A stretch of 42,526 nt of DNA from a virus. This document shows positions 8,752 through 42,526 of this stretch, piece by piece. The stretch spans positions 1 to 42,526 of the IMG/VR virus record IMGVR_UViG_3300044699_000072; one strand, given 5' to 3'. Position numbers and translations under genes: made by a program. Under the pieces are notes generated by a model, which made no database searches, was not told the origin of the DNA, and was given only the letters and a program-made list of their open reading frames with translations. Numbering within the stretch: position 1 is the stretch's first letter; every line of letters begins with the position of its first letter.

Positions 8752-9039
8752 CTATGGCATGACGGTCGGAATGTTCAACGGTGGAAGTGTGAAGGTCTCT
8801 TCCTCCTTCTTCCTCTTCGTGCAGGACTTGCAATGGGGCTTCGCGAGAATACCGTTGCTGTCACGGTAGATAAGCGTCACCTTCTCGCAAACCCAGCAGA
8901 TAGTCTTCTTGCCTACGATCCTGTCCTCGAACAGATAATGTGTGCAATCTGGAAGCGCGCACTCGTAGACACGACGACTATACGGACCCTTCCCTAGCCT
9001 CCCTCTCTTATACTTGTGGACGTGTTTGAAGCTCGGCAT
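8752..9039 (-). CDS. Zinc-ribbon protein
   Basis: The 95-residue basic protein has Cys at YECALPDCTH, then ICWVCEK and HCKSCTKRKK, which give two likely zinc sites. The N-terminus is rich in Lys, Arg and His. A nucleic-acid-binding role is likely, and phage transcription or recombination factors often look like this, but no family was recognised. It lies directly after the PD-(D/E)XK nuclease gene. Confidence 0.7.
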   Translation of the reverse strand: MPSFKHVHKYKRGRLGKGPYSRRVYECALPDCTHYLFEDRIVGKKTICWVCEKVTLIYRDSNGILAKPHCKSCTKRKKEEETFTLPPLNIPTVMP

Positions 9040-9040
9040 C

Positions 9041-9964
9041 TTAGACTCCTAATTTCGAGTAGTCCCTGGTGTGTGGACTCCAAGGCTCAGCTACCCGATA
9101 CTTCGATTCGATTGCGTATTCTCTTGCCTCCGGTATCTTGGTGCAGATGGGCATGAAGATGCAGCCAGAGTATTTGTCACACGACGTGTAGTTGGGCGGC
9201 CAGACATCATTCTCAAGGTAGAAAGCGTAGACCTTGAGCCAATAGGTAGCCCAGTATTGCCATTCAGCAATCCTTCCCTCGGGATAACTGAGGACAATTC
9301 GTTGGAATCTCTCCTTGGCAGGGAGTGTTTTCTGAAAGCCAATACGATTGACAATCAACCTCGGAGTATCGAGCGCCCAACAGTAGCCCATGAATTGATT
9401 GCTAAGGTCTGAGACATCAGAGCGACGCGACGCCGTCTTGTGGTCTCCGACGAACACCCCCATCGGGGAGTCAGCAACCAAGTCCACGATGCCCTCGTAG
9501 AGAATGACTAGGTTTCTCATCCTCGTAGAGCTTCGTGAGAACGATTGCTCGATCTCCAGAGGAATCCACCCGTCACCTGCGAAGTGAATGGGCATACTCT
9601 CGAAACTGCTTCAGACATTCGTTCCGATACTCAGGTTCGAGGTCCATGTCGAAAGACTGCGAGCCGCCCTATCTCGACGCAGGTTTCGACCAGCTTCGTT
9701 GATCGGCATCCCGATAAACTTCGCGTAGGGATGCGGCATCTCCTTCCCGTCAATCGTGACGGTCAGGTGATGAGGTTTCGGATTCAGGATGCGCCCGTAG
9801 TAGATACGGATGGCAGCATCCGATGCATCAAGTCACCGCGCTCTAAGAGCCTCGGCTTTCTTGTGCGGCCGTAGATTCAGGCCAAACTCCAGATTCACCT
9901 TACGACCGCACGATGCGACCGTATTGAGAATCTGTGAGTCAGCTACTAAGGTCTTTTTGCTCAT
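9041..9964 (-). CDS. PD-(D/E)XK nuclease, Cas4/RecB-like (frameshifted)
   Basis: The intact frame 9041-9595 has the catalytic core: GIVDLVAD (Asp at 38) and VGDHKT (Asp 51, Lys 53), then SNQFMGYCWAL. Near the C-terminus CDKYSGCIFMPIC resembles the cluster-binding or zinc-binding Cys set of Cas4-like nucleases. The N-terminal third lies upstream in other frames from ATG 9964: MSKKTLVADSQILNTVASC, then ALERGDLMHR, YYGRILNPKPHHLTV and EYRNECLKQFREYA. At least three indels separate the parts. The joined protein is about 305 residues and probably acts in phage recombination or DNA end processing with the Sak4-like ATPase. Confidence 0.75.
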
Positions 9965-19773: not shown

Positions 19774-20235
19774 ATGTCAAGACTCGCACTAATCACCTAC
19801 CTCGACGGTCGGGATGTCGATCCCGGCTACGGTGTCCCAGCTCCGCCGAACTATCCCTCGCAGGGACTTCCGGGCGGCGGTGGCCATCCTTCTCAGGGAT
19901 TGCCGGGACTTCCTCCGGGCGCTGTCACTCTTCCGGTCTTTCCGTGGGACCCGACGATTGACAACAGTCTGCCCGGCGGTGGTGGACATCCCAGTCAGGG
20001 ACTTCCTGGATCAGGCGGTCGACCGGATCAGTCGTTGCCTGGATCGGGTGGTCGTCCGGACCAGTCGCTTCCTGGCTCTGGCGCACAGCCGGATCAGGGC
20101 TTGCCGCGTCCTGGTCGCAAGTACGTCGTCAAGTGGCTCGCTTGCGTCGGCCTGATTCTCGTGCCGGACAACAGCTTGCCAGGTCAGGGCGGTTCCATCG
20201 ACAACGAACTTCCCGAGACGCCGGAACCGAAGTAA
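19774..20235 (+). CDS. GLPG-repeat protein
   Basis: The 153-residue protein is built from repeats of the type PSQGLPGGGGH and PDQSLPGSGGR, about eight copies, with a short hydrophobic stretch KWLACVGLILV before the last repeats. Similar Gly/Leu/Pro proteins occur in phages near the packaging genes, and their role is unknown. Triplet-like Gly spacing could give a collagen-like or polyproline structure. It is flanked by the PEP-CTERM gene and a structured intergenic region. Confidence 0.7.
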   Translation: MSRLALITYLDGRDVDPGYGVPAPPNYPSQGLPGGGGHPSQGLPGLPPGAVTLPVFPWDPTIDNSLPGGGGHPSQGLPGSGGRPDQSLPGSGGRPDQSLPGSGAQPDQGLPRPGRKYVVKWLACVGLILVPDNSLPGQGGSIDNELPETPEPK

Positions 20236-33854: not shown

Positions 33855-34326
33855 ATGCCGCAGTATCCTGGAAGAATGAGAAACGTTACGGCGATGCAAA
33901 AGGGCGCAAGCCGAAGCATTTCCAATTATGGTTCATCGTCGATTGACAGCAGCGGAGCTCAATGCTGGCGTCGATTTGCTCCAAGCTGCGCGCCGGTTCA
34001 AGATATCGACTGATTGATGCGAGCTTCATTGCAGTCGGTGGCAACGTACGCTGGCGCGACGGACGTTCGTATCACAGGCGTGCAGGGGTGGCGCGACGGT
34101 ACAGCTTGTCACCCGCTGTTATCGCTGGCTTGACTCGTGGCAAGAATGGCCCCGACCTTGGCGAACGACACCCAGACACTGGCCATCCTCCTCAACGACG
34201 GTCGTGCCTCGCATCAACCGACCGATTGCTGGCACACCCATCCGAGTCGTAAAGACGGCTGCGGCCACACTCACGGGTGCTCACACACGTCGACGTCATC
34301 GCCAATTTTCCTGCTGGAAGGGCTAA
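33855..34326 (+). CDS. Conserved tail-region protein (frameshifted)
   Basis: The start MPQYPGRMRNVTAMQKG follows GGGAGG. Later frames read AEAFPIMVHRRLTAAELNAG, LIDASFIAVGGN, TRGKNGPDLANDTQTLAILL, and THVDVIANF with LLEG before TAA at 34324-34326. These parts assemble to a well-known kind of phage tail-region protein (FPI-x-VHR-x-LTAAELNAG at the start, a beta sandwich end). Several indels are needed. Its stop overlaps the next start (TAATG). Confidence 0.55.
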
Positions 34327-36137
34327 TGATCGAGAACCACGTTCCAATACCGATTACGACCCTTTAATGGTCTATGGGACCGTGGTCCTGACGAGGGCTA
34401 TTCCTCTCGAATCATTTTGCACTGGCTTCAGAACCTCAAATTCAAGCCAGCTTCATTCTATACCAGAGAAGGTTCTATTCTGGTACGTAGTTTGCGGAGC
34501 AGTCCTCCGCTTTCCACGTTTACAAGATTAACAGGTCAGGCTTCTCGCCTCTCATCCTTCTTAACAACAATTCAATCTACGATTCAGTCAACATGGGAGT
34601 GCCCATCTTGACTATCCCTGGAATGATAGACTTTTCCATGGAGGACTTTCTTTGACCGGGCATACATCACCCCGCATAACGGGACGACTGGCTTGCCTGG
34701 TCAATACATTCACTACTACACTGGTTCAGGAGTAGCGAGAATTGCCGGTGAAGTGGTACCGGCACTGGTGCGATAACTGGCGTTGAGGGTTCTCTACGGG
34801 AAACTTCGACCGCGGGACGACATGCCTGGGCAGTCCGCTTTTGAGACTGCTTCAGGCTACGTCACTCCGTTCGGTGCCTATGGTGTAATCTGCTGTGACG
34901 ACGGCAGGTATGAAATCGTTTAATCTGGTCTAACATCCCTACTGGTCCTGCTGGCACGATTGCCCAGAGTTCTGATGGGGACGAAGATGTCGAAGAAGGC
35001 TGGAAATAGCGACTATGCTAATCAAGAGTGGTTCATCATCCCGAACGGACGCATCGCGGATAACCACAACAGTTAAAACAGTTAGCTATTTCGACGCTGA
35101 CCTCCACCGACCAAGCAGACTATATCCTTGAGCAGCTATCCGCCTATCCCTGCCGGAGTTGGGATTACCTCGTATCAAGGAAGCATTGGTGTGTGGGGGA
35201 GGACGCGAACCAATCGACTGTCAGAGTCTCCCGAGCTGGACAACCCGAGTCCTTCAATTCCGTTGAGGGCTTTCTCCAGTCGAGCCGACGAACGGTGGAG
35301 GAGTTAGAAACTGCGTAGAGTTTCGCTCATCCCTCTACATCCTGAAAGCTCAGAGATGTTACGCTACGCAGGCGACGGACCAAGAGGGCGCTGTTCTGAG
35401 CTGTCCTCTACTCGATGGTTCGGCAGGGACAGAATGCCACGGTGTTGGTAAAATTTTCGAGCGGAACTCAACACCGTAGACAAATACCCTCATAGCCTCA
35501 CGACGGGGCCTTCTCCTTTTCACAGGTACACTTCTCTGAGGAAATGACTTGGAAAGTAAACGATATCTGGAAAAGGATTCACAAAGACTCATTTTCATCG
35601 AGTGCAGGTAGCGGTAGATGCAGACTCTCATTTCGTCTACGTCTACCCTGCCTCTTGATGGCTCGCTTGTAACAAAAGCACTGCTCTTTGGGGACTATAC
35701 TGAGGGCTGGACTCATGCGAAAATTAAGTGGTCTCTCATGGAGCTTCCCGCACAATCCGTATCGATTGCACTTGATGTCGATGACGTTATCAAAGGCGGT
35801 TATCTTCAGATATGCAAGGCAAGACCAAAACATTTACAAGCTGGTTGCTGATTGTTAGAAACGATTACGACGCTGTTCTCATTAGTGTGTTTGACGACTG
35901 GTCAGCTTCCAACAGACTCTAAGGGTGAGGTCTTCCATCATGGTGGAGTACGCTTCAGAATCTATGGTGAGGGAAATCTCGACTCTGGTAATCACCTGTC
36001 TAGATGGTGCTCAGGTTTTCAACCTCTCATGCAATTTCGTTGCAGCTACGCCTGGTGTCTATCACCTTAGGACCTTTAACGCACAGAGTGAGAAGATTAC
36101 GGTCCGGGGTGTTCTCAATAACATTAACCGTATATGA
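34326..36137 (+). CDS. Tail protein, about 600 residues (heavily frameshifted)
   Basis: No frame is open for long, but phrases in order across frames fit one gene: NGLWDRGPDEG (34.37 kb), TREGSILV, MGVPILTIPGMIDFSMEDF, HNGTTGLPGQYIHYYTGSG, EWFIIPNGRIADN, NCVEFRSSLYILKAQR, TECHGVGKI (35.43 kb), LLFGDYTEGWTHAKIKWSL, then SEKITVRGVLNNINRI. The order and phrasing match the large tail protein that follows the adaptor in many environmental podoviruses (possibly tail tube or nozzle type). The start ATG 34326 overlaps the previous stop. At least ten indels are implied. Confidence 0.5.
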
Positions 36138-38476
36138 CTGTTACTAAGATTTGGGTACTTCGTCAGACAGCTTTGGCCTCACTAGGCCGCAATGACCGAT
36201 CTTGTTTGGAGAAGGTCCCACAGCGGGACTCACGAATTGATTCCTTAGGGAATGACGAACGCTCTGTTCTCATCCTCAAGGACATACTCCGCGAACTCAA
36301 CAAGGACATTACTTCGATAAGCACGGCTATTGAGCCGATTCTAGAGCCCCCTGTAATTCCTACTCACGGTGGTGGTATTGGGACAGTTCCAGCACCTACA
36401 GACCTTCAAGCTCAAGTTCTCCCTCTCAGTATTCTTTTAATGTGGAGTTCTCCAGAGCTTCAGCTCGACTGTATGAAATTCGCCGTAATCTAGTTCTCGA
36501 TTGGAATACAGCGTCATTATGTTACTCGCACGCCATCTCTCAGTGTCAACCTGGCACCCCATCAAATCAGGAGGATACTATTTCCTAATCAAGACACTTG
36601 ATAGCTTGAGTAACATATTCTCCAGATTATGACTCTGTTCCTGTCACAATTTACAACCCCAATACACCGACCATTACGCTATCGGTTATAGACAATAATA
36701 CGTCCTGTTGGGCTGGAACAATCCGATGACACTTTCAACATAGACTTCTATAGAGTCTATAAGAACGGGTCAGTTCTCGGTACGATTCGCGCGACCTTTA
36801 CTTCAATTTTTGAAAACAATCGCTGCGCTCTATACTTCATGGACATAGAAGCCGTAGATATCCGCGGGAAATGTCGGTGGCAAAGGAACAGTCACAGCTC
36901 AGGGTCAACACCGCCACCTGACTTGTTCTTGGGACCAAAGAGTTATCTGGTCTCAATGGAACAAGAGTCATGTTCTTCGCCAGCCGTATCTTCCGAGCTT
37001 TGCTCGCTTGTATCTCAACCAGAGACTTGGGCACAGCATTTCTCGACTCGTAGCTGGGCTAAACATTCAAGCTCAGCTAACTGCTGGCTATCCGCTCTAC
37101 ATACAGCCGACTGTCTTGACTGGTTCGTATGAAGAAGTCATTAGACTACGGCACAGCGATTCAGAACGTAATTGTTACGATTACCTATCAAGTTACACAG
37201 ATAGTGCCGCAGGTTAAGGTCCTTATTCAAGATGGCATTTTCATACGGACGGTATTGCTTATACACTATTTACGCCGGAGCATCACAATTTGCTCAAAAC
37301 TTCAACGATACCTCAAGTTTCGACTTGAGTTTACTGGCTTGAGTGACAAGGCTCTTGCTAGAATACGCCTTTCGTGATCGATAACCATCGACGTCAAGCG
37401 AGAGATAGATTCTGGAGAGATTATTGCGTCCGCTGGAGATGTCGGTGGAACGCAAGTAATGTTTAACAAAACCTTCAAGGACATAGATTCGATACCTGCA
37501 CAGCAGATGCTATCGAGCCTATCGACGCCTCATCTACGCTTTTGATGACGTTCCTGACCCTACTTACTTTTTTGTCTTGCGCTTGATACCACAGGAAATA
37601 GCAGTGACGTATCTCATCTACCTGGAAGGGCGCGGGATAGTCTAATGTGGGAGCGTTGGAATCAGTCAACCAAGATATCGAGAAGAGCACCGATAATGGT
37701 GGCTCATGGACTCTCTTGGATTGGAATGCCAGCATCATTACTCAGGGAGTAATTGATCCTGCGCGCCTGCCTCCTGCTGGTGGACTTGGTGACGTAGTTG
37801 GTCCTGCTGGTGCCACTGATGATACCGTAGCTTTATTCAGTGGCACGACAGGTTAAACTCATCAAGGGCTCGACATTATTTTTTTACGTCCGCGGGTCTG
37901 ATACTTAGTTTTGGAGCTAAAAACAGCAGCAGTTCCTGCACTACGACCAAAATGGTGCCACGCTCGAAGCTGTATTAGGCAATCAAGCAAATTATGCGGA
38001 TTTTCGATGTCTTAGTTTGTTTTACTAATTACTAATGTTGATACCACCGGCTATTACAGGTTTACCGTTTGCTTAATTATACAGTTGTCTGGTCTACGAC
38101 TGGAACTCAGCCAGTTTATCGGTAATGGAGCGCTCATTGGACGCTACCTACGGATATTGGACCTCTCTGCTTCGTTCGCATCAGACTTTACGTCGGTACT
38201 ACTACGACGTTCGGCACAGGTGCGTTTATGTTCTCGGTTCCTCTTACGATGAATCAAGCTGGTGGCACCGATGCTTGACGCTCACGGCTCGGATGCCAGT
38301 GACGGAGCAGCGGCTTATCGTGGCATGGCACGCTTTGACAACGCGAATCGAGTCACTATATTTCAGCAACTTCTACCACTCCGAAATTGCCCGTGATGGG
38401 TACTGGCACTTACTCATCACGCAATGGCGAGTACTGACGATTAAACATACTGGGGCATTTATGAGGTTGGGTAAAT
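36134..38476 (+). CDS. Fibronectin-III-type tail/fibre protein (heavily frameshifted)
   Basis: The gene begins MTVTKIWVLRQTALASLGRN at 36134. From 36.37 kb the frames read GTVPAPTDLQAQVLPLSI and YNPNTPTITLSVIDN, then FYRVYKNGSVLGTI, typical FN3 strands. Next come YLNQRLGHSISRLVAG, then the fibre part: DNGGSWTLLDWNASIITQG, DPARLPPAGGLGDVVGPAG and VALFSGTTG with KLIKGSTLFF. The end reads FGTGAFMFSVPLTMNQAGGTD. Such FN3 plus collagen-like or beta-helical fibres attach tailed phages to cell surfaces. Limits between this gene and any second fibre gene are not certain. Confidence 0.5.
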
Positions 38477-38477
38477 T

Positions 38478-38643
38478 ATGGAGCAGCCGATTACTCTCGA
38501 AGAGTCTACCTCTTACTTGTGAAAAAAGACGTATTGATTTTCAGACTTGGAAGTCAATTAATAAGTTAGCTAATGACGAAGGCTGGATAGAATAGAAGAA
38601 CAGCTTGTCGCCGAGTTAAAGGGAAGCTAGAGGAAATTCATGG
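38478..38643 (+). CDS. Small coiled-coil protein (frameshifted)
   Basis: The start MEQPITLEESTSYL is followed, one frame on, by VKKDVLIFRLGSQLI and then EEQLVAELKGKLEEIHGK. The joined product is about 55 residues and mostly helix. Small coiled-coil proteins of this type are often found after tail-fibre genes. Low certainty because two indels are needed. Confidence 0.4.
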
Positions 38644-39503
38644 CAAAATCGGCAAGGCCAACGAACACCTCACCATATTCATACCGTCCTGGACATTGAT
38701 CAAGCGATGCGGCGGACCGCGGCGACTCTGTTCGTCGCGACACCGACCAACCATTCCCCTGAACTCAATCCGGTGGAATCGGACCACAAAGATATTTGAA
38801 AGAGTGGGACGGCACGACCTGGATTGCACAAGTTATCGAATTCCGGGTGTGGGACAGGAGCTGCTCTGCCTGGAGGATATCGCGTCAAGCCTGGGTTTGG
38901 CACGATGTGTCTGTCCAAAACGCCAATTGCTGTTGCTATCACAGGAGGAAGTGCGTCGGCGCTCAATCTGGCAAATTGCACGCACTCTGGAACATTCACG
39001 GCTAACGCTACACCTGGGCATTGGGACCCTGAGTGTCTTAGGTAATGGAAGCTGGACTGCACAATTCTTTGCACCCAGCTGGATTCAAAACGGCACGCCT
39101 CATATATGGCAATGATGGTGTTACAGTGCAAGTCATGCACGCTGTGAGCTCTGTTGTTGGCTTCATGGTTTACGGCAACATGCAGGCTCGTTTTCCAAAT
39201 CGCATGGGCTATCCCGGCGGGCGTCGATTTGTGGTGCAACATTCTAAATGGCGAAGTCTCCTGGTTCACTTTGGGTAGTAGGAGCGTCGCTCAGGTATGT
39301 TTCTGAGACATGGCAAGGAAGTGGTCTATCCAGGGAGATATGTTAAGGACCTCCCTCACCCTTATCTGTTCCTGGTTTCCCTTTGGATTCAAGGTAATAA
39401 TATCTTTTCGTAAATCAGGCAGGTAGTACGTCCTTAAAGTGCCACATAATTGGACTGGTGGATATCCTGCTGGCGTTAACAAAGGTATAGCTCAATTTGG
39501 GTA
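38641..39503 (+). CDS. Tail-region protein with Trp-rich motif (frameshifted)
   Basis: The first ATG at 38641 opens MAKSARPTNTSPYSYRPG. Later frames give KEWDGTTWIAQVIEFRVWD, RRISRQAWVWHD, KPGFGTMCLSKTPIAVAITGG and SALNLANCTHSGTFTANATPG, and end in NWTGGYPAGVNKGIAQFG at 39503. The WDGTTW phrase is common in phage tail and fibre proteins. It is the gene before the His-x-Asp protein. Exact function not known. Confidence 0.4.
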
Positions 39504-39545
39504 GAAGGAGAATTTCTCCGCTGGCTCGAAGCAACGGGCGGGGAA

Positions 39546-40117
39546 ATGTGGTGTCATCAAGACCAGCATGGTGACGCTATTGCGCATATAGATACAGCTC
39601 ACGTAGACTCTCACTCAGATAGTCATAACGATACTGCGGACATGGTGATACTCATAACGACGTAGCTCACAGCGATACATCTCATAGTGATTCACATACT
39701 AATACGGCTCATAGTGATTCACCATGGAGACGTGGAACATACAGACGGTCAACACACTGAATTACCACTTGACACTGGTATATCTCATTATGATGGAGCG
39801 GCCACTCCGACACTCCCATCAAGACTATCACACTGACGTTGAACATTACGACGGACATACAGATACACATAACGCATGGCTATGTAGCGCACATAGACAG
39901 GCCCGCACACATAGTGACTCACACGGAGATTCAGCGCACGTTGACTCACACAAAGCGATTAGAGCACACGTAGATAAAGCTCATAGTATACTCAATACCG
40001 ACTCGGCTCATGGTGACTCTCACTCAGACGTAGCACATCAAGACGTCGCTCACGGCGATCACAACGATTGCAACAACTGGTGGGCATGTTGACAACCCGA
40101 CATTGATTGGAACATAG
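39546..40117 (+). CDS. His-x-Asp repeat protein, candidate maturase substrate (frameshifted)
   Basis: Four frames join into about 190 residues packed with His-x-Asp: HGDAIAHIDTAHVDSHSD, then HGDTHNDVAHSDTSHSDSH, HHGDVEHTDGQ, HSHQDYHTDVEHYDGH, HSDSHGDSAHVDSH, and HGDSHSDVAHQDVAHGDHND (40.0-40.07 kb), about 30 copies in all. The end reads GGHVDNPTLIGT and stops at 40115-40117, touching the maturase ATG. The upstream open frame begins near 39486, so the true start may be earlier than the ATG at 39546. The pattern is like the His-Xaa-Ser substrates of radical SAM systems, but with Asp. Metal-binding fibre tip is the alternative. No other domain is visible. Confidence 0.6.
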
Positions 40118-41280
40118 ATGACTGTTGAATATCTCCCCGTCGGTATTGCGTGTAACCTGAAGTGCGAGTATTGCTATCAGGACTCAATGCGCGATGCTGG
40201 CAATATCAATACTCCTCGGAATTGGTACGAGGTCGAAAGCCCAGATGAGAATGGGTCAGCCCTTTACTGTCTTGGTGGAGAACTCTGCTTGCGCCTATTG
40301 ATCATCTTCATGAAGTCTGGCCTTCGGCCTCAGTCGTTTTGGTAGTAACGGTATTCAGACGAATGGTGTCTTGATTACTGACGAACATATTGCAATGTTT
40401 GAGAAATACAACGTAGGAGTAGGCATCTCCATCGATTGGTCCGGGTGGCTTAACGAGCGCGCGTCAAAGACAATGAGGAAACAGAGAAGACTTTGCTTGC
40501 TATCAGAAAACATTTGCGAGGCAGGTCGCGCACCATCACTCATCGTGACGATTCATAACAAGAACGGGACGAGAGTCCCAGAGCTTCTTGATTGGTTTCT
40601 AGCTCTTAGAGGTCAAGGAGTCCAGTATTTGAACCTCCACAATCTAGAGGTTGAGAAAGGCATGCCCAATCTTACCATCCCTGAGGAGAGGAGATTCAGG
40701 CTTTTTCAGCATCTATGAATGGTCCAAAGGTTCAGGCATGTATGTCGAGCCTTTACTGATATCGTGAAACTCCTTACGGAGGAAGACCCACAGGTAAATT
40801 GCACTTGGAATCATTGCGACCCAATGACAACCAATGCTGTACAGGGAATCAATCCTGATGGGTCGCGCTCCACATTGCGGTAGACTAATAAGGATGGTAT
40901 CAATTGGGTAAAGTCTGACCAGCCTGGTTTTCGAGAGATACCTTATTCTGCATCAAACTCCTCAAGAATTTGGAGGGTGTCAGGGTTGAAAATACTTTGC
41001 ACATTGCAAAGGACAATGTCCCGGCACAGCCATTGATGGTGATTGGCGTAATAAGACCATCCATTGCAAGCTCTGGTATTCACTTTTTTCGCACATCGAG
41101 AATGACCTTCGTGCATCGCGGGACAACGAATTCTCATTCCGACAATAAAGAGGCCAAGCCGCTCGCAACGTGGCGTGGAAATCACGGTGACTCCCAACAT
41201 GGCGATACTCCGCATGGTGACAGTCATGGGGACCATACAGATTACGGAATTCGTGCTACATTTTCTAGAGAAGGCTCCAG
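40118..41280 (+). CDS. Radical SAM/SPASM maturase with C-terminal His-Gly-Asp tail (frameshifted)
   Basis: The start MTVEYLPVGIACNLKCEYCYQ at 40118 abuts the repeat gene. CNLKCEYC is the CX3CX2C cluster loop, and LGGE (40.28 kb) the S-adenosyl-methionine strand. The frame 40371-40718 has VGVGISIDWSGWLNERAS, SLIVTIHNKNG and VQYLNLHNLEVEKG, typical of SPASM enzymes. After VNCTWNHCDP and GINPDGSRS, one frame at 40.96-41.08 kb reads EFGGCQG, CKGQCPGTAIDGDW and KTIHCKLWY, the SPASM auxiliary-cluster cysteines. A tail follows with NHGDSQHGDTPHGDSHGDH. It would modify a peptide by radical chemistry; the His-x-Asp protein is the obvious candidate. End is set by the next likely start. Confidence 0.75.
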
Positions 41281-42526
41281 ATGCAACGACTTAATGTATC
41301 AATTCCAGAGTTTACTCGTACTGCTTGGGTGTCAGAGTCAGCTCGACAGGCTTGGGTAGTTATAAGATAGCTGCGATTAACTCAGCTGGTTCGAGATAGA
41401 ACGAAGCTCTGTCGCTATGGGAGTACGACCTGGTGGGCTTACAGAGCATCGAGCCTGATAATCTGGTCCGCTTCCAACAATGGTGCGCGGATCAATCGTT
41501 GGGTATGGTCATCGTCGGACAGGAAGGGGTATCGCCAGTCTATGGTAATGCCGCAGTTCCTGTCACGCCTGGCAAGGCATGGACGTATCGAGTCTACTTT
41601 GGTAAAGACCCGGTAGGTTTTTGCTAATGCTTGGGGGAAGGACGAACTAGAGATTGGGAAAGCTCTTGGCTATCCACCTTGCTGCTCTATCTTCTTTAAC
41701 TGGAACTGGAAGCAACAGGGATTGGCGCGACCTAGTCTACCCATGATGCAAGGTCAGGATTAGGATAACTGGACCGCATACTTTAGCACATTCTTTTGAG
41801 GCAATATTGGAGTGCGCGCCACATTTCATCTACCTTGTTCTTTCCGATTGCCCACTTTCGGATATGACACAGCTAAGCGTATCCTGGCGCACGGATCGAA
41901 GCAACAGGATTTGCGGAGGAGATGCTTTGGATTGAGGAGATGCTTAATTGGCCTATTCGATGGTCCTCCTTGCATGGGGTGACTATTGTAACGACGCCGA
42001 TTATGAAATCGTTTCCTCTTCAGACGCTCTTTCTACAGCTGTAGTCTATGATAGAGAAGGTCCCAGTCTATCCAGACGAAGGTGCAACTGGGGTCGATTT
42101 TCCGTTTCGTATGGTGAGCCAATGGCTCTCAAGGGAATCGAAGATACCTGGACGGATAATGGATTCTCAAGTCTCTTTGCCATGCGCCACTCGCATGACT
42201 CGATTCTCAATGCGATTGGTCCAATTCCTCTTGGCAAGGAAGGGTCTTGGATTTGGGTTGTGGAAATGGAGCGCAATCAAGCGAATTCAAGGAAGTGACC
42301 CTGACATCAAACCAATGGGTGTAGAGATTGACGAAGCCAAGTGTAGTAAAGCCTCGCTCTTGGGCTTTGATATCTTTGGTCTGATATCGTGCGCACTGAT
42401 TCCTACTTGTGCTGACATACCTCATGTTATCTGGTCTCTATCAATCGACTCATGGAGCTAAATGCTACGCTCTTTCTCAGTAAGCTCAGCAAGCATACAA
42501 GTTCCTAGTCGTCTATGGGTATCAGG
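41281..42526 (+). CDS. GYPPCC-domain and class I methyltransferase protein, partial (frameshifted, runs off the window)
   Basis: The start MQRLNVSIPEFTRTAWVSES at 41281 opens a new protein; segments of it lie in three frames. Next come QSIEPDNLVRFQQWC and VTPGKAWTYRVYFGK, then GKALGYPPCCSIFFNWNWK (41.66-41.71 kb), VRATFHLPCSF, EEMLWIEEMLNWPIRWSSLHG, MRHSHDSILNAIGPIPLGKEG and, at 42.24 kb, VLDLGCGNGA followed by KPMGVEIDEAKC. The last two are motif I and the acidic strand of a class I S-adenosyl-methionine methyltransferase. The CC-containing domain is not recognised for certain. It ends at the window edge, so it is incomplete. Confidence 0.6.

Follow-up and report, generated by a model that had tools for sequence, protein, structure and literature searches.

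A phage radical SAM/SPASM maturase with a His-x-Asp arm, encoded beside a His-x-Asp repeat protein: a candidate system for crosslinking a tail protein

Results

Gene layout in the window

The DNA stretch analyzed here (the window) comprises 42,526 bases and covers an IMG/VR virus record in full. Clean long open reading frames (ORFs) extend across 1–33.9 kb; beyond ~33.9 kb the listed frames are short and broken, with frame breaks throughout the last 8.6 kb (positions 33900–42526 are possibly a poorly corrected long-read contig end). A megablast search of positions 20000–42526 against the phage collection returned no match. Using the proteins of relatives as guides, the genes of this region were located in the order HxD-repeat protein (HxD being the triplet His-x-Asp), radical SAM (rSAM)/SPASM enzyme, DUF483/methyltransferase-like protein, with the following features:

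39248–40117, plus strand: HxD-repeat tail-associated protein (putative substrate), frame-broken; from tblastn with the repeat proteins of relatives and from HxD clusters
40118–41294, plus strand: rSAM/SPASM maturase gene, split over three frames, with an early CxxxCxxC; from tblastn and Pfam
40800–41121, plus strand: SPASM portion of the maturase, from NCTWNHCD through GCQGCKYFAHCKGQCPG and further; from the frames and tblastn against L006, L008, L012 and L018
41177–41272, plus strand: substrate-like C-terminal arm NHGDSQHGDTPHGDSHGDHTDYGIRAT, with the HxD array proper at 41183–41242; from translation, tblastn and HxD count
41281–42502, plus strand: DUF483-like and methyltransferase-like protein, frame-broken, starting MQRLNVSIPEFTRTAWVSESARQAW; from tblastn with the L008/L015 homologues

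The repeat protein of the window has an N-terminal head, MAKSPGSLWVVGASLRYVSE, and HxD clusters that begin at 39555; its C-terminus, read directly in frame, is ...HVDNPTLIGT-stop (stop at 40115–40117), just 5' of the enzyme ATG. The corresponding proteins of L002 and L003 end in ...PVNLGP and ...HVDNPVLIGP. The end ...NNWWAC given by the plain ORF list looks like a frame artefact, judging by the L003 homologue, whose ending has a close counterpart in the window in another frame. Pieces of the maturase were recovered by tblastn at 40118–40291, 40285–40320, 40323–40934, 40678–41121 and 41177–41272 (the arm), and its end was placed by comparison with relatives and by a TAA at 41292–41294, which the start of the DUF483-like gene overlaps. 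The L003 homologue of the latter gives Pfam matches to DUF483 and methyltransferase, and PADLOC reports a weak mad2 match over its methyltransferase part, as well as a partial viperin-type match as the only hit on the enzyme.

The arm and its reading frame

An earlier note on this DNA had claimed that the maturase itself carries His-Gly-Asp repeats. The frame from 41168 indeed reads TWRGNHGDSQHGDTPHGDSHGDHTDYGIR, with five HxD within 41183–41242, and the reality of the arm is in our view virtually certain: four HGD fall within 17 residues, whereas 200 mononucleotide-shuffled versions of the window never gave more than two within 26 residues. Its codons vary synonymously (CAC/CAT for His, GGT/GGC/GGG for Gly, GAC/GAT for Asp), a pattern that fits selection on the protein and not a fresh DNA repeat. 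Since the maturase is split among three frames, a shared frame of the arm and the SPASM domain cannot be proven from the window alone. In the intact relatives L012, L008 and L018 (arm identity to the window arm of 72%, 66% and 79%, respectively, over 28–32 residues), the arm comes after SPASM in the same frame, and the possibility raised in the note that the repeats belong to a separate gene fails in all three. The wording that the maturase ends in the repeats needs correction, as they lie near the C-terminus and these relatives run on with GIPAT..L or GIRAT..L; placed by comparison, this extension would reach ~41294 in the window, in another frame.

Distribution of the enzyme and of the arm

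All counts below describe the closer part of the family, as the best 80 of 237 matches were kept in the search for relatives and the best 80 of 422 in the search of bacterial genomes. A first scan gave two virus loci (55–57% identity), an alignment scan 16 loci, and a wider scan 78, many of them on contigs already found (best 80 of 237). The phage collection contributed the Thermus phages Cumys, phiMa and phiLo (47–48% identity); bacterial genomes contributed eight close loci followed by a sharp drop in score (best 80 of 422), and three plasmid records, two of them haloarchaeal, hold relatives at 32–39%. Removal of near-copies from loci L004–L108 left 74, of which 71 have the whole core.

When an arm is called from at least two in-frame HxD at the enzyme end, it follows the SPASM domain in frame in 56 of the 71 enzymes among the matches listed (55/63 from phages and viruses and 1/8 from bacterial genomes), so that the same tail is found in related maturases, where the earlier note had proposed to look for it. 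Two HxD within the last 90 residues occur in none of 72 other rSAM proteins of the same genome scan (among the matches listed), and the arm label changes five times on the core tree vs. 13.8 times in shuffles. The 15 enzymes without an arm, again among the matches listed, are those of L045, L048, L051, L056, L058, L060, L067 and L078 and of the bacterial loci L101–L106 and L108. Eight of these 15 (L045, L060, L067, L078, L101, L102, L103 and L105) adjoin an HxD-rich ORF, so that the reaction does not generally require the arm. A DUF483 profile built from 11 of the 74 loci matches 68/74 and, outside these 11, 57/63.

Several loci show further arrangements. L101, L102, L103 and L108 (Acidobacteriota, Frankia) have short HxD-bearing frames near the rSAM gene (ORFs of 69–155 aa in L101–L103) in RiPP-like clusters with armless enzymes, and in L103 and L108 the enzyme and DUF483 form one fusion protein. 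Near an armed rSAM enzyme, L107 encodes an actinobacterial protein (8829–9302) whose N-terminus is secretion/lipoprotein-like and whose C-terminus is rich in HxD. Tandem pairs of maturase genes are found in L087 (4491–5996, 5998–7941) and in the record of L216 (28987–30300, 30664–31860); the second gene of L087, as well as L090, has a long arm built of PHGDHTD units.

Co-occurrence of HxD arrays and the enzyme

Arrays were also collected by an enzyme-blind DNA pattern of four HxD in a row, which matched at least 120 virus DNA stretches. The array criterion (at least 10 HxD in frame, at least five middle residues, 80% of His in HxD) was set after viewing the arrays and before the enzyme search, and it was met by 17 records, several of which were contigs already known from the search for relatives, and two of which (L205 and L271) have near-identical arrays. 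The enzyme is present in 15 of these 17 records, among the matches listed; it was not found in L197, where the array is doubtful, or in the 17.6-kb record L266. In 101 other pattern-matching records an enzyme match was found in four (among the matches listed), of which L208, L216 and L220 look like real arrays missing the criterion, and L287 is a weak rSAM match of 75 residues. L285 combines a real-looking array with no enzyme within its 18.9-kb record. In the family loci, [HYFW]x[DN] arrays occur in 65/74 vs. 2/72 control loci, both controls at the bare threshold, the control records being of mixed length (4–251 kb) and some of them mere fragments. Taken as a whole, we consider it very likely that the enzyme acts on the array.

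HxD arrays recur in several protein contexts, namely long phage proteins, short bacterial peptides, the actinobacterial lipoprotein-like protein and the enzyme arm. The view of the earlier note that the repeat, shared by the maturase and the separate upstream protein, is the functional unit agrees with this picture of a portable unit.

The repeat protein as a putative tail substrate

The putative substrates are represented by 79 HxD-rich ORFs from 64 loci, chosen by HxD density. Separately, 22 to 54 HxD were counted in intact ORFs upstream of the enzyme. The head of the repeat protein is predicted to be an all-beta domain (mean pLDDT 89.6) for which no clear relative of solved structure was found (Foldseek E at best 0.19, Z at best 3.7); this does not by itself prove a new fold. 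Among viral proteins the head has a single match at E ≤ 0.001, to an unnamed protein of 342 residues (43% identity), and searches of Pfam, PHROGs and NCBIfam with the repeat protein gave no family, with sub-threshold matches only. As for neighbors, the L003 gene upstream of the repeat protein weakly matches tail-fibre families (E 1.7e-4), and the Cumys repeat gene sits among annotated tail and baseplate genes. In phiLo, several large ORFs rich in HxD lie on the minus strand, opposite the rSAM gene (L022:14807–19046); they hold 72, 101 and no fewer than 17 HxD. In L016, a second protein of that phage (7879–9330) has short HND/HGD inserts, so that HxD segments may be linkers in other phage proteins.

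The arrays follow a rule broader than the triplet by which they were found. When repeat regions are delimited by HxD alone (107 regions, 12,099 residues), His stands at -2 for 2181 of 2493 Asp, and 120 of the 312 Asp without it (38.5%) have an aromatic residue in that position (Tyr 72, Phe 39, Trp 9), as compared with a mean of 21.2 (SD 4.1, maximum 35) in 500 shuffles that held the H and D of each HxD fixed and shuffled the rest. Because such shuffles keep the composition and not the period of the array, an offset control was run, in which the aromatic share for the same 312 Asp was 4–6% at the other tested offsets and 11% at +2. A looser lag count placed Phe six residues before Asp in 70 of 178 cases, an effect that disappears once the count is restricted to Asp lacking His at -2. 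The residue two after His is Asp in 2181 cases, Asn in 60, His in five and Ser in four. As read from these sequences, the array rule is aromatic-x-Asp/Asn.

This rule bears on an unlikely alternative, according to which the arm is a His/Asp tail that binds a metal (iron, zinc or nickel) and loads or guards the enzyme, the array likewise being an uncrosslinked metal-binding fibre. The pair His-x-Asp commonly serves as a metal ligand, and flexible tails rich in His are found on metallochaperones; moreover, aromatic swaps are rare in the arm itself, with 285 His vs. 11 Tyr at the position two before Asp. In the arrays, however, Phe (39) and Trp (9) replace His in register, and Phe is no metal ligand, so that the Phe/Tyr/Trp substitutions argue against metal binding by the arrays, being less telling for the arm. 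All SPASM cysteines are kept in armless enzymes, and metal binding does not explain why an rSAM enzyme occurs in the same record as the arrays.

Fold and predicted chemistry of the enzyme

The assignment to the radical SAM superfamily is supported by C12, C16 and C19 (CxxxCxxC), invariant in 57 relatives, by PF04055 (E 3.9e-16 in L002 and 1.2e-8 on read-through pieces of the window), by PHROG 1802, an rSAM family (2e-28), and by rSAM proteins as the top fold neighbors. The SPASM domain follows the seven-cysteine formula Cx9-15Gx4C ... CxxCx5Cx3C ... C, with C234, G249, C254, C288, C291, C297, C301 and C317 (L008 numbering) invariant in 57/57. The nearest solved folds are tied, ChlB at Z 29.6 (2.8 A, 318 residues) and anSMEcpe at Z 29.3, and a sequence-profile search of the PDB ranks anSME first (5.6e-22 vs. 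5.7e-18 for ChlB). The nearest NCBIfam models, both far under cut-off, are those of the dynobactin maturase DynA (68.1 of 450 bits for L008; 82 bits for L002) and the cyclophane maturase AmcB (70.8 of 425). L008 likewise misses the cut-offs of the cyclophane models YhhB (55.7 of 445), GrrM/OscB (39.3 of 310), XyeB (36.3 of 450) and FxsB (28.4 of 370), of the anaerobic sulfatase maturase model TIGR03942 (62.6 of 349 bits) and of HxsB (28.3 of 370 bits). The enzyme is thus outside every named NCBIfam family listed.

As in triceptide systems, aromatic-x-residue triplets (HxD/HxN, with Tyr/Phe/Trp swaps at -2 only) adjoin the enzyme. Crosslinks from residue i to i+2 made by rSAM enzymes are described in PMC11002830 for Tyr-Asp (YxdB), Trp-Asn/Asp (OscB), His-Ala (HaaB) and His-Arg (YhhB), and a reference title in PMC12636437 terms ChlB a multiple cyclophane synthase. 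Because the aromatic-x-Asp/Asn triplet matches such known i/i+2 crosslinks and lies beside an enzyme of this kind, the array is best read, from motif, fold and context, as a cyclophane substrate; another oxidation is also conceivable. Overall, a cyclophane-type link is what we would predict with reasonable, far from full, confidence. The tie of anSME (not known as a crosslinking enzyme) in the fold comparison, its lead in the sequence profile and the missed cyclophane cut-offs count against the crosslink reading.

For the Thermus phages Cumys and phiMa, the published description of an rSAM/DUF483 module suggested DNA modification, drawing on cyanobacterial neighbors with deazapurine genes (PMC11437467). 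For the whole cassette this is highly improbable: the gene just upstream of the rSAM gene in both phages encodes an HxD-repeat protein of 342–343 residues with 53–54 HxD, the one of Cumys lying beside the annotated tail and baseplate genes; the targets of the top fold neighbors are peptides or proteins; and array and enzyme co-occur.

Composition and origin of the arm

The arm comes after a helix that follows the SPASM domain and spans, from first to last HxD, 6–219 residues (median 15), the longest expansion being that of L093; a short segment such as GIPAT..L, GIEVVWL or VPVKV often comes after it. An AF2 model of L008 (57-row alignment, mean pLDDT 89) assigns a pLDDT below 50 to residues 359–380, which include the array (361–375), and ~76 to the next ten, as for a flexible segment on a confident core. 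The idea that the arm docks into the active site in the predicted model was considered and not borne out, the pLDDT of the arm being below 50; AF2 does not place the arm.

Gly is the middle residue in 57.5% of the 285 HxD of 57 arms (one of them from a cut ORF, and ~5 of the 285 being an HPD of the post-SPASM helix) vs. 16% in the repeat regions of the 79 HxD-rich ORFs. With this HPD left out, as it also was from the arm counts in the window and in frame and from the arm span, the per-locus mean Gly share is 65% in the arm vs. 17% in the repeat proteins of the same locus (43 loci); the arm has the higher share in 40 of the 43, and the two shares are uncorrelated (Spearman -0.11, p 0.50). The sequence HGDHTD occurs 33 times in the 4,672 post-core residues of the 57 arms and five times in the 28,421 residues of the 79 HxD-rich ORFs. 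Repeat proteins with at least four HxN are found in 14 loci, in one of which (L035) the enzyme ORF is cut; the arms of the other 13 hold one HxN in total. In L027, L028, L035, L069, L070 and L074, many HxN stand beside HxD in the repeat proteins, and the readable enzyme arms stay HxD. Both synonymous codons for His or Asp are present in 41 of the 47 arms that have at least three HxD.

As possible roles of the arm, the earlier note had offered a tethered second substrate, a metal-loading segment or a handle that pairs enzyme and substrate. These data do not sustain a reading of the arm as a plain second copy of the substrate, since its Gly preference is uncorrelated with that of the repeat proteins of the locus and it keeps HxD where they use HxN. 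Copying of the arm from the substrate of the same locus was rejected on the same lack of correlation. Because the HGD/HxD bias is independent of the substrate and synonymous codons are mixed, the arm appears to be selected in its own right rather than copied recently from its neighbor. A tolerated by-product, i.e., repeat DNA of the neighbor captured by recombination, might be expected where the repeat gene abuts the enzyme gene, as it often does, and where arms are expanded, as in L093; this reading is largely refuted, and very unlikely, given an arm kept in most enzymes among the matches listed, with few changes on the tree, a motif preference uncorrelated with the neighbor and mixed synonymous codons.

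A somewhat unlikely, but weightier, alternative is that the arm is a docking peptide, never modified, which attaches either to the tail protein, at its head or its repeats, or to the DUF483 partner. It draws on the arm's own consensus (HGDHTD), which is independent of the motif of the substrate, and on the position of the DUF483 gene, which in many phages lies directly 3' of the armed enzyme, and in armless loci is fused to the enzyme (L103, L108) or upstream of it (L045, L056, L058, L060). Yet this order is not strict, as DUF483 is directly downstream in armless L067 and L078 and upstream in armed L071, and the arm consists of the very triplet on which the enzyme is predicted to act. Indeed, the HGD bias of the arm, independent of the substrate motif, fits a docking or metal-binding segment equally as well as a substrate.

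Discussion

Our preferred reading, which we hold at just under even confidence, is that a phage rSAM enzyme crosslinks a tail protein and that it engages the repeats through its arm, a flexible segment in cis that resembles the substrate and is probably self-modified. The upstream gene would provide a tail-associated protein composed of a small beta-sheet head and a long aromatic-x-Asp(/Asn) array, in which nearly all first residues are His. In each triplet, the rSAM/SPASM enzyme would link the ring of the first residue to the beta carbon of the third, producing a three-residue cyclophane with a loss of 2 Da, whereby the array would become a chain of small rigid rings. The flexible HGD/HTD arm at the C-terminus of the enzyme, being built from its predicted target triplet, may be able to enter the active site as a substrate-like segment in cis. 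Its modification, by its own enzyme or by a neighboring copy, is a prediction for which we see the prospects as evenly balanced, and a tethering role, by which the arm would keep the enzyme engaged with the repetitive tail protein, is suggested more tentatively. A further, rather doubtful extension pictures phage tails as poly-cyclophane rods, with the enzyme first stapling its own arm, the rings holding it on the growing rod, and the enzyme working along the array.

If this reading is true, radical SAM crosslinking, known from short peptides, would also harden virus particles, with dozens of rings per chain, and the DNA modification suggested in print for the Thermus-phage module would give way to a testable role in protein modification, in cultured phages. 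The substrate-like arm would offer a natural way to study how rSAM enzymes work through long repeats, and structural studies could use it directly as a cis substrate.

Among known systems, the His-Xaa-Ser type has His every few residues in a repeat protein beside rSAM maturases. The present cassette shares with it (HxsB) a repeat protein with regular His beside an rSAM maturase, whereas its third residue is Asp or Asn, with four Ser vs. 2181 Asp, which sets the arrays apart from HxS. The sulfatase maturase anSMEcpe, which oxidizes one Cys/Ser in a sulfatase, is similar in fold (Z 29.3), in rSAM/SPASM architecture and as the best PDB sequence match; unlike in that protein, the curated sulfatase-maturase model is not reached here. 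The triceptide rSAM enzymes (XncB, OscB, MscB, YxdB, HaaB, YhhB, ChlB) likewise combine rSAM/SPASM architecture with an adjoining aromatic-x-residue triplet substrate, ChlB being the top fold match. In contrast to their short peptides, the substrate here would be a phage tail-associated protein with 22 to 54 HxD, the enzyme bears its own HGD arm, the curated cyclophane models stay far under cut-off, and the crosslink is a predicted one.

A published counterpart is the rSAM module of Cumys and phiMa (Viruses 2024, PMC11437467), with the same order of HxD-repeat protein, armed rSAM enzyme and DUF483. The section of that paper on the module is silent on the HxD repeats and the arm; judging by the gene order, its third module gene, a protein of unknown function, is most likely the upstream HxD-repeat protein. 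In the literature covered, including work on phage rSAM enzymes and queried by terms other than HxD, we found no account of HxD arrays and no other paper on this cassette. A resemblance in layout only is seen with the borosins (omphalotin-type), in which the core peptide forms the C-terminal part of the enzyme; versions in which enzyme and precursor are separate are also described (PMC8429565). Those enzymes are alpha-N-methyltransferases fused to a core peptide; here, an unrelated rSAM/SPASM enzyme has a separate putative substrate and, in addition, carries a substrate-like arm at its own C-terminus.
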